Part shown: positions 38,901 through 41,900 of the stretch, piece by piece | Layout of the letters: every line of letters starts with the position of its first letter | Position numbering within the stretch: the first letter of the stretch is position 1 | Source of the DNA: Stichopus chloronotus | Lineage: Eukaryota; Echinodermata; Holothuroidea; Aspidochirotida; Stichopodidae | Direction: 5' to 3' | Length of the DNA: 64,000 bases | NCBI GenBank assembly: GCA_021234535.1 | Contig: CM037846.1 | Location: 14,520,150-14,584,149 of the forward strand | Notes under the pieces: generated by a model | Databases searched by the model: none | Seen by the model: only the letters and a program-made list of their open reading frames with translations | Told to the model about the DNA's origin: nothing | Translations under genes and position numbers: made by a program

Positions 38901-41900
38901 TACAAAGTGTAATCAGACAAACAGTGAAGGCCTGCGCTGAGATAGGACTGGCTGTGTATAAAAAAAAAAAGAGAAGGGAAATCCAGGAGAAAGAAAAAAC
39001 AAAGCAGAAGAGTTTTTTATACGAGTTTATCTAAACATGGAGGAAAAAGGAAGCCATTGTCTAAACATGGAAGTACTGGTCGACTGGAGAGATTTTGCAA
39101 TTCATTAACTCCGACGGAACCGATATATCATATAGCGCTGGACATCAACCATTGCCGGAGGCTATCCCGGATGCTGCACGTAAATTCTTATCCGATTCTA
39201 GAGTTCCTTGTTACACAAAGAAAAAAAAATAGACAACTAGTCCGGAAACTCCTCTACACAGATGTACCACCCGGGGTGGATTTTGCTAGTTTGTGAAGAG
39301 TTTTACTTATTTTCTCTCACTCATTAAACCACTTGCTCTCAGCGTTGAACAACGAAATACCTTCTCCATCAGTTGTAGTTATCCTACTAACAGTAAATTT
39401 CTCAACTGCAATGTCAGGCATGTACGAAGAGGAGTACAAATGCAAAGTCTGCAAAAAACGCTATTCAAGCGTGGACAAGCTAAAGGAACACTATAATGAT
39501 AGACATTTGTCTAAAAAGAAACATCAATGTAATACCTGCAACTATTCCTCCGACAAACGGAGCGATGTCACGAGGCATCAAAACAGCCGTCACAAGACAG
39601 ATGATTCAAAGCGGTCCGCGGAGATGAAGACAAGTGAAACTCCTGGACCGAGCGGGGCAACGTCACCAGTGCCACCGAAGGTGGAGAGGATGTTACCTAA
39701 ACGAAATGACCCGGATGGCGATTGGCCCACTTTAGAGTTCATCCTGGGGTCCGAAAAGCCCGCAGAAGAAGGTGATACTGGAGAGGTTGCTACAGCCAAG
39801 GCAAACTTATCACCAACCCCCTTCGTTACCCCAGTCAGAGGCGGGAATACCCAACCTTCAGAGGAGACTCGTTCAGACACCAGGAGAGTGGTAGAGAGGC
39901 GCACATGCACGGTCTGTTGCGGAGAAGAAGGGGTCCTGACGGAAAAGATCGTGACCGAGGTTTACAGAGACGGCGGCGTGACGGTGACAGTTAGACGGTA
40001 TAAGGGGGAAACCGATGGTGCCGTGCCGGAAGGATTAGCTAGCGAGGAGCGGAGCGCAGGCGCCGCCGAGGGACCGCGCCGCCAGATATTTAATTAGGAG
40101 CGGATTGTTTTGAGAATTCACTTACTGTATTTATTGGACCATTTTACGTTACCATATAGCTCAATTTCATTTTACTTTGTCTGTGGATTCTGGTTTACAC
40201 GCGGACGTCAGCGCGTGCTTTACTTCTTACGGACTTTAGTTGTAAAGTGCATGCATGAAATGATTTATGTTTTGTGACCAAGAACACTTCATTTTGGATG
40301 CTTGTTTTTCTATTTTTTTTTATAATTACGGACATCTGTTTTAAGATGAGAACTCGATCATATGTTTGTTTTCAGGTTCAATTTATATTTGTTGTTGGAG
40401 ATTTACCTTGGTGGAGCAAAGGGTATGTGTACGCCAGATTTTCTATTTATGTTTATTGTTGAAGTTAACTTAAATGCGGGACGCATTTGATTCTTTGGTG
40501 GGAGGGGTGTAACGGCACAGGATGTACCGTTGTAGCGTTTACTTTGTTTTATAGGCCTACTGTATTCAGTACTATCCTGTATCAGCTACCTCTTAATGTT
40601 AATATTTGAAGTTGACCACCTAGGGAGATGCTGAGCATTTCCTGTCTGTGTGTCCGGTAAATTTATATTTAGAAACAAAGCATGCTGAGTCTCGTCTGTG
40701 CTCATACGTCGCTTGGATGTAATTGATTGGTCAGTTTATGGTAGACTGGGCGTGGTTTACCGTTCGTATAGGTTTAAGAGTTGTTTTACACGTTATAAGT
40801 ATGGAAAATTGTTTTCATATAAAAATCCCTGCAAATTGAAAAAGGAGTTGTTTTTCCGAGGGTTTCCGGAGGTTCCGAAGGTTCCGCTCCTGGGGTCCGA
40901 AGGGCCGGTTCCATACAGTAGAGTAGGTTCCGTGGGTTCCGAGGTGGCTGACATCGGCAGAAGGGTCCGGAATCAACTACGCCGAGGTTCAACTGCGCCG
41001 AGGTTCAACTGCGCCGCCGTTCAACTGTACTGAGGTTCAACTGCGCCGACGTTTAGCTGCGCCGATGCTCAACGTTCACGAACTTCGTCGTCAACCTCGT
41101 GGGTTTCTATTCCGAAAACTGCGGCCTCCCCTGTGATTTTCTTATGCTAGAAGTATTTAATCGTACGATGTATTGCTATTACTAAGTGGTACGGATTTCA
41201 TTGCTATTATTAAGCTCCACGGAATTCATGTAATGCGCGATTCAGGCGCATCACCTTTTTATGCTGTAGATATGTAAATAGACGTTCCAAAATTGAATTC
41301 CTCTTGTCGACAGTTTTATTCCTCGACTCTCTCCCCCTTCCTCCCTTCCTCGCACACACCATCGAAGACGGCGCGTTACATTGGTGGCAGCGGTGGGATA
41401 TCAGTGACTTATTTGAGGTGCGTGCGAGATAGAGATGTCGGATTCCCATCCGTCCGCAGAGTTCATGATGGACGAGCAGCGTGCATGGTCACTTCCTGAT
41501 CTCAACAGATCTAAGATGGAGGAGTTTGACCCTTTAATGAAGACAACGAGACCATCGACGAGTGCTGGGGCGATGAGTAAGGGGTTCCTCCCTTCCTCGC
41601 ACACACCACCGAAGACGGCGCGTTACAATACTATCGCTGGAGGCACTGCGCCCTCGTTATCGCTTAACCCCGATCGTGCGTTATCTCCCTCTTAATGCAC
41701 TGTCTAGCCAGCATTTATTAACCTTTCATTATTACTTCCAGCTTACCTTTCCATCTCCTTGAATATGGCTCGTGGCATCTGTAGTCACCATCAAAAGACG
41801 CCTGGCGTTCTGTCTCCACCCTATTTGATCCTTAGAGGAATAAAACAAAGGATGACAAAGAAGACCAGCCACATTTAATCGAGTTATTCAGTTTAATGGA

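Follow-up and report, generated by a model that had tools for sequence, protein, structure and literature searches.

A conserved C2H2 zinc-finger accessory gene behind pol in Ty3/Gypsy retrotransposons of Stichopus chloronotus

Background

Nuclear regulators encoded at the 3´ end of a retroelement are known from retroviruses, where foamy virus Tas and HTLV Tax are produced from 3´ ORFs by splicing and act on the LTR. C2H2 zinc fingers are connected with retroelements in two other ways. Drosophila gypsy carries tandem sites for a C2H2 protein of its host, su(Hw), and R2-type non-LTR elements encode N-terminal C2H2 fingers fused to their reverse transcriptase.

Among LTR retrotransposons, those of bdelloid rotifers possess a third ORF that is not an envelope and belongs to GDSL and DEDDy types (PMC5408684). 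The element presented here resembles them in having an extra ORF after pol, which in rotifers is typically spliced and in some types lacks env features (PMC5408684). It differs in the nature of the product, since the rotifer ORF3s are of enzymatic or membrane types, and neither zinc nor C2H2 is mentioned in the main text of that report (PMC5408684). We show that a small C2H2 protein is encoded behind pol in a whole set of Ty3/Gypsy families of one sea cucumber, and we consider what its function may be.

Results

The element and its third ORF

The window, a stretch of 64,000 nucleotides of the Stichopus chloronotus genome, contains on its plus strand an element of Ty3/Gypsy (Metaviridae) type, having TG..CA LTRs, a primer binding site, a polypurine tract and the pol order PR-RT-RH-IN. 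The 873-bp 5´ LTR (TGTAACGG...GCGTTACA, 32446-33318) and the 3´ LTR (40508-41380) pair with 4 differences in 873 positions and have the ends TGTAAC...GTTACA. Directly after the 5´ LTR follows the primer binding site TGGTGGCAGCGGTGGGA (33320-33336), presumably complementary to the 3´ end of tRNA-Leu; a like motif stands behind the LTR in relatives. The main gag frame, with a CCHC knuckle (PF00098, 2.1e-06), occupies 33725-34870, and the N-terminal part of gag (33403-33639) is in a different frame; in the relatives L025, L026 and L031 both parts share one frame over the stretch compared. Pol (34831-38688) contains the Pfam domains of protease, RT, RNase H and integrase. It lacks four residues beside the RNase H KEL motif that are present in 13 of 13 aligned relatives, and in nine further columns, including the one at which the pol frame begins, it deviates from the residue common to the 12 or 13 relatives present. 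The polypurine tract GGGAGGGG (40500-40507) lies directly before the 3´ LTR, and just upstream of it stands an inverted repeat, AAATGCGGGACGCATTT (40471-40489), present in 16 of the 20 loci described below. Downstream of a TATAAA at LTR position 311, the 3´ LTR harbours a tandem array of 5.8 copies of the 16-bp unit TCAACTGCGCCGAGGT (40973-41065).

No target site duplication was found at the window copy (AACAC versus ATACT), and on its 3´ side there is a 247-bp tandem remnant of leader and LTR end (41381-41627), so this copy is rearranged. With its gag frame break, its pol deletion and the deviating pol columns, it looks defective. Identity with Troyka was rejected, the termini of the window element not being CG..CG; Troyka is characterized by CG..CG termini and 3-bp duplications (PMC12440569).

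The original prediction had placed an extra ORF between pol and the polypurine tract, and this was borne out. ORF3 spans 39411-40097 on the plus strand (stop codon 40095-40097) and encodes 228 amino acids. The start first assigned to it, 39333, proved to be an in-frame TTG, 39411 being the first ATG; the frame itself is indeed open, from 39297 stop to stop. No ATG ORF of at least 228 amino acids arose on either strand in 2000 dinucleotide shuffles of 38689-40507 (maximum 192), hence the length of ORF3 is not a product of chance; an open frame of at least 225 codons arose in 1 of 2000 shuffles of its own stretch. Base composition by codon position resembles that of gag and pol. A codon-usage score trained on gag-pol reached 0.154, compared with 0.095 (SD 0.042) in 230 host stretches, and is not decisive alone.

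As predicted, the protein contains two C2H2 fingers. Both are of the form C-X2-C-X12-H-X4-H, within the pattern C-X2-C-X12-H-X3-5-H with a recognition helix, and both are seen in the family alignment: finger 1 at residues 11-32 (39441-39506) and finger 2, with the recognition helix KRSDVTR, at residues 40-61 (39528-39593). The fingers of the window copy fall under the curated Pfam cut-offs; among ten family members, PF13894 was found in all ten and PF00096 in nine at E <=0.01 (best PF00096 1.6e-06). The N-terminal third of the protein is basic (pI 9.5). Structure prediction without an alignment gave a mean pLDDT of 47, with confidence limited to the part around finger 1. Further downstream, the window has its version of a [WY]xPxLxxLL-like motif common to the families (10 residues, 39723-39752) and a C-terminal beta-hairpin (39933-40007; strands 175-184 and 190-199 in a low-confidence model) that aligns with a PDGxxxVxV-like stretch of other families. 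Between them stands a block of 10 residues rich in Cys (39903-39932) that had been taken for a conserved feature. Other copies of the window's family have it in slightly changed form, whereas none of the other aligned families does, and it was rejected as a shared domain.

The ORF had also been said to lack membrane and signal features. This is true of the translation from 39411 and limited to it, since the in-frame segment just upstream of that ATG is mildly hydrophobic (Kyte-Doolittle 1.55). In the 228-aa protein of the window copy, hydropathy revealed no membrane-like stretch (top 19-residue Kyte-Doolittle mean 0.62) and neither of the errantivirus-type env marks, signal peptide and transmembrane segment. 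An ORF of nucleic-acid-binding type standing in the env position without envelope features is thus supported, and its protein very likely binds nucleic acid, as judged from the fingers.

ORF3 is widespread in the genome

Scoring 150 of 450 candidates in the species' own genome (719 Mb, 267 contigs) yielded at least 73 matches to ORF3 with E values of 0.001 or lower, many of them full-length and open; the count includes the window copy, and some of the matches are pieces of one copy. From the match table, 20 loci were picked by hand to span its range, all being fetched through their ORF3 match, and each of the 20 has gag and pol of Gypsy type upstream of ORF3. The same applies to the two ORF3s of another stretch, L057, for which upstream sequence is available; the L057 copies stand outside the family lists below. 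Own-genome matches with upstream DNA in hand thus all sit behind pol. A one-off capture in the window copy was rejected on these numbers.

In eight families, pol accompanies ORF3 at one locus or more: W (window, L021-L023), G (L024), H (L025, L032, L035), E (L026-L031, L056), D (L033, L034, L055, L058, L059), A (L036, L037, L041-L048, L064), B (L038, L049-L053, L061, L065, L068) and C (L039, L040, L063). Two more, F (L062) and I (L060, L067), are known from ORF3 without upstream DNA and stem from short pieces of 16 further matches and 12 further stretches. In L054 no ORF could be read, and L066 lacks a finger match. Across the eight families the accessory ORF is retained at the same place behind pol. 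Whether other copies have it was a point on which the original prediction could have failed: three further W copies do, each broken by frameshifts, and a homologue exists in seven further Gypsy families.

Searches beyond this genome were made chiefly with the window's own ORF3, a divergent copy. Against 5.8 billion proteins, all of its candidates (510 and 181) had E values above 10, and against 120 pol relatives the best E was only 0.13. Viral contigs gave no match with ORF3, an RT piece, the pol alignment or the ORF3 alignment; genome contigs gave none with the window ORF3 and 12 distant loci with the pol alignment. A C2H2-like regular expression run over these 12 loci picked out frames in L003, L004, L006 and L011, those of L003 and L011 lying partly inside a long frame that also holds pol.

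Predicted splicing of the ORF3 message

Splice acceptors were scored with a splice matrix over a stretch reaching as far as 6 kb upstream and 0.9 kb downstream of the ORF3 start. In 12 of the 20 loci, belonging to five families (A-E), the best predicted 3´ splice site lies 3-14 nt upstream of the ORF3 ATG, and in a 13th locus of these families the acceptor near the ATG is second best, among 524-668 candidate AGs per locus. One ATG stands between predicted acceptor and ORF3 start in family C. Families W, G and H have no strong predicted acceptor at the ORF3 ATG; in all four W copies the rank-1 acceptor is found 532-572 nt upstream of the start used, in the window at 38825-38844 (rank 1 of 585 in the internal region, 567 nt upstream of the ATG). 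Strong donors are predicted inside gag in L026, L031, L033 and L038, and in families E and D, with the phase worked by hand, they are out of frame with ORF3. For this reason an in-frame gag-ORF3 fusion, possible in the window through a weak donor at 33514 (rank 26 of 305), was not relied on. From these predicted sites, it is likely that ORF3 is expressed from a spliced message.

An acceptor and a place after pol are also what an envelope gene would have, and ORF3 might accordingly be envelope-like, its finger-like Cys/His pairs being merely retained and a signal segment being spliced in frame from gag; the mildly hydrophobic stretch upstream of the window ATG and the in-frame junctions possible in the window would suit this. 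Yet the predicted acceptors of five families are directly upstream of the ATG, zinc ligands and helix residues are retained, and the 228-aa protein has no transmembrane segment. We consider this explanation very improbable, and envelope identity was rejected on the lack of any membrane-like stretch in the 228-aa protein.

Conservation and descent of ORF3

Ten ORF3 sequences were aligned, the window and nine from the 20 loci, with near-duplicates and broken copies left out. All ten have in common the two fingers, the [WY]xPxLxxLL-like motif and the PDGxxxVxV-like hairpin stretch. Seven of eight zinc ligands are aligned in every sequence, and the eighth is absent only in L026 and L036, being retained in their sister copies L027 and L037. 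Representatives of the eight families are 18-41% identical in amino-acid sequence, and their synonymous sites have reached saturation (pS 0.71-0.89). That the fingers persist despite this saturation shows constraint on ORF3 between families.

Within families, pooled pN/pS is 0.40 in C (1 pair), 0.50 in E (15 pairs), 0.64 in A (36 pairs), 0.84 in D (3 pairs) and 1.10 in B (15 pairs). When the window is compared with its three W relatives, dN/dS is 0.98, 0.69 and 2.91 for ORF3 and 0.69, 0.76 and 0.87 for pol, so that family W shows no present selection. As to neutral evolution, the other result that could have told against the original prediction, family W shows no purifying selection on ORF3 or pol; constraint is seen between families.

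The RT tree consists of 38 rows (the window, 13 loci and 24 of 120 listed outside proteins), seven loci and one protein having been dropped for stops or for want of a single continuous match. Elements with ORF3 are held by two supported groups; L037 is unplaced. Outside proteins stand inside both groups, and six changes are needed if their ORF3 is read as absent. The nearest named protein among the tree rows comes from Holothuria leucospilota (74% over the RT region). In the ORF3 tree (13 rows, long branches), W, G, H and E split deeply from D, B, C and A. For families represented in both trees this split agrees with the RT groups, G being outside the RT tree and the L037 of family A unplaced. 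Both trees would fit one old gain followed by vertical descent, which is compatibility and not proof.

A host zinc-finger gene captured recently, functionless in the element and spread by copying, would explain why no selection is visible in family W, and the fingers do resemble host C2H2 proteins: these are their PDB matches, CTCF making up 10 of 13 in one search. The presence of ORF3 behind pol in eight families, with synonymous divergence saturated as far as compared, argues against such an origin, which we regard as exceedingly improbable. No host source gene was found among the 150 of 450 own-genome candidates scored. That ORF3 is a conserved accessory gene of a Gypsy group is, in our opinion, nearly certain.

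Finger 2 and tandem arrays

Helix positions -1, 3 and 6 of a C2H2 finger make the contacts to double-stranded DNA. In finger 2 these positions are K/R, D and K/R in eight of nine readable families (W, G, H, E, D, A, B and F) and R, N and R in family C; family I is not readable. Helix positions 2 and 5 of finger 2, and finger 1 as well, vary among families. Contact and non-contact positions do not separate cleanly, because position 1 is also basic in eight of nine families and the single copies L061 and L064 deviate. That the base-contact residues are retained suggests that selection has favoured the reading of a triplet, which by the recognition code we take to be GCG, and GAG in family C with its Asn at position 3.

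Tandem arrays are found in these elements. Unit lengths are 16 bp in W and H, 13 in E (copy number varies between copies), 22 in C, 108 in B, 29 in G (2.3 copies), about 8 in D, 51 and 64 in F and 67 in I. Most arrays lie in LTRs, as indicated by LTR repeats for W, H, E and C and by position behind the polypurine tract for B and D. Family A has a 48-bp array in the leader and gag start and no like array behind ORF3.

Per 100 bp, GCG occurs 10.8 times in the array against 1.9 in the rest of the 3´ region in W, 11.9 against 1.6 in H, 8.8 against 1.9 in G, 24.4-27.0 against 1.2-2.4 in E and 7.5 against 1.2 in B. The arrays of family C contain no GCG (0.0) and have GAG at 12.8-13.1 against 2.9-3.2. 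In composition shuffles (500 each), the GCG excess is significant for W (P 0.028) and E (P 0.000) and not for B (P 0.056), H (P 0.102) or G (P 0.154); GAG is in excess in C (P 0.000) and also in B (P 0.01), a predicted reader of GCG. For the 80-bp segment of highest density in the 3´ region, family D gave P 0.02 (L033) and P 0.115 (L034) for GCG, and families F, I and A showed no GCG excess there. GCG reaches its highest density in the window element at the end of ORF3 and not in the LTR array.

The word CTGCG is present in at least two copies in 7 of 10 family arrays, a value equalled by 3 of 500 column shuffles (P 0.006), with one hand-picked array per family and that of A taken from the leader. 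Longer shared words are not significant (6-mers P 0.81; 7-mers marginal, P 0.058). Since the arrays are mostly GC-rich and possibly of common descent, although 3´ regions of different families align only over stretches of 38-51 bp, the match between array and finger is not proven. A pairing of CTGCG-type arrays with the specificity of the ORF3 fingers is suggestive. We propose only tentatively, and would sooner doubt than assert, that this is a Gypsy lineage with its own zinc-finger regulator and a matching LTR array, specificity co-evolving by family (GCG with GCG, GAG with GAG).

The same fingers could serve integration, steering the pre-integration complex to GCG-rich or otherwise particular chromatin or aiding nuclear entry, in which case the arrays would be coincidental. 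The retained base-contact residues and the basic N-terminal third are in keeping with this, as are R2-type elements, which use C2H2 fingers for target DNA. Such a function seems unlikely to us, as the product of a separate message would not be packaged with pol by default and the arrays and the fit of family C would be left without explanation.

Action on RNA may also be envisaged, ORF3 being a chaperone, a packaging factor or an anti-silencing factor (against piRNA or host zinc-finger repressors, for example) on leader or LTR RNA. Helix residues -1, 3 and 6, as double-stranded DNA contacts, do not favour it, and a CCHC knuckle for RNA is already present in gag. On the other hand, the window array is situated about 155 bp downstream of TATAAA and so would be part of the transcript, GCG occurs inside the inverted repeat adjoining the polypurine tract, and LTR retroelements are reported to be repressed in embryos by FZNF zinc-finger genes (PMC10547256). 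On balance we judge an RNA function to be quite unlikely.

Discussion

In our preferred reading, a group of Ty3/Gypsy elements has long carried ORF3 as an accessory gene, presumably retained by descent. The ORF3 message would be spliced to an acceptor just upstream of the ORF, or further upstream in family W. The protein would be small, probably mostly disordered and nuclear, with two N-terminal fingers predicted to bind DNA, finger 2 reading a triplet of GCG type, and with the [WY]xPxLxxLL-like motif and the C-terminal beta-hairpin possibly serving protein contacts. It may bind the CTGCG-type tandem arrays of the element's own LTR or leader, and in this way regulate the element's transcription in the manner of retroviral trans-regulators.

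Most likely, then, ORF3 encodes a spliced DNA-binding regulator, LTR binding being the leading, unproven mechanism. For the whole chain, an old, spliced, DNA-binding accessory gene regulating its own element, with regulation taken loosely, we see about even chances. The narrower claim of an LTR-binding self-regulator, drawn from residues and arrays, falls slightly short of that.

A search of the literature by titles and the beginnings of abstracts, with Repbase and most subscription journals outside it, found no Gypsy element in which pol is followed by a C2H2 ORF. The original prediction had seen here a candidate for something undescribed, and this agrees with the literature searched: a C2H2 accessory gene of this Gypsy group is apparently undescribed, with prior annotation possible.

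Among known systems, ORF3 as proposed would correspond to Tas and Tax in its 3´ ORF, predicted splicing, presumed nuclear location and presumed action on the LTR; we know of no sequence relation between them. R2-type elements share element-encoded C2H2 fingers and differ in the fusion to reverse transcriptase and in element class. Elements with an errantivirus-type env have an acceptor just before the 3´ ORF; at ORF3 a candidate acceptor in this place is predicted as the best site in 12 of 20 loci and as second best in one more, all from families A-E, and families W, G and H have no strong one there.

Next to the bdelloid ORF3s, the MDG1 sORF1 and the Retand TRP28 come closest as precedents. 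The sORF1 of the Drosophila MDG1 group resembles ORF3 as a small accessory LTR-retrotransposon protein that is subnuclear and has a potential helix-turn-helix motif (PMC11952523). It differs in lying upstream of gag and in not being C2H2, and its transcripts are full-length, with no evidence of splicing (PMC11952523). TRP28 of Retand elements is likewise an extra ORF that is found across its lineage and predicted to bind DNA, and about half of these elements have tandem repeats between pol and the 3´ LTR (PMC11963269); it is a plant protein, antisense and with another domain (PMC11963269). The AlkB ORF of orchid Ty3/Gypsy elements is, like ORF3, an extra ORF acquired and kept by a Gypsy lineage, and unlike it encodes an RNA demethylase, in plants (PMC9289625).

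Extra ORFs behind pol are usually termed envelope-like; here a small C2H2 protein is kept instead, its base-reading residues conserved. If the proposed binding is true, changes of specificity could be traced across families and an arms race between element and host zinc fingers tested from the element's side. The zinc-finger protein that recognizes the array of Drosophila gypsy belongs to the host, whereas the elements described here may supply their own; if ORF3 binds its own LTR arrays, the element would carry both halves of a DNA-recognition pair.

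A recurrent inverted repeat preceding the polypurine tract

In the Ty3/Gypsy element of the window, the sequence immediately 5' of the polypurine tract (40471-40489) forms an inverted repeat, ATGC(G)...(C)GCAT. A pattern search among the 20 loci of the same genome that carry gag-pol upstream of ORF3, the two-finger C2H2 accessory frame, recovered this repeat before the tract in 16 besides the window element, and gave no match in the remaining four (L032, L036, L037 and L039). It is present also in a further stretch, L069. Families D, B and C differ in the outer pair of the repeat, and both sides are altered together (C-G, A-T, T-A). 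Such two-sided changes, read from sequence, are the behaviour that would be expected of an RNA hairpin.

Surroundings of the element and related copies

Downstream of the 3' LTR, positions 41381-41627 hold a 202-bp leader copy and, behind it, 43 bp from an LTR end; this is the remnant of a tandem element, at which no target duplication was found. An integrin beta exon (PF00362) is encoded on the minus strand at 48411-48680, and the Gypsy element may lie antisense inside one of the introns of that gene. Other segments on the minus strand resemble integrin on visual inspection but have no Pfam match. The minus strand also bears, at 44868-46400, an uninterrupted 511-aa reading frame for a reverse transcriptase (PF00078), judged by eye to be of non-LTR type.

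Another locus, L057 (C21:10768900-10775600), contains three ORF3 copies spaced about 3 kb apart, two of them preceded by pol pieces; these are nested or tandem partial elements. Within the LTRs of family E (L026-L031), the 13-bp array ranges from about 3 to 17 units from copy to copy, a possible length polymorphism of putative regulatory sites.

Three families possess a predicted donor and a strong predicted acceptor inside gag (L026, 1014-1053; L033, 728-763; L038, 530-562). Their spacing of only 32-39 nt is below usual intron length, and the pairs are perhaps alternative splice sites. The gag starts of L025, L026, L031, L033, L038 and L039 display N-terminal, often repeated NPF motifs (for example RNPF, ANPF, INPF and TNPF); endocytic proteins with EH domains bind motifs of this kind.
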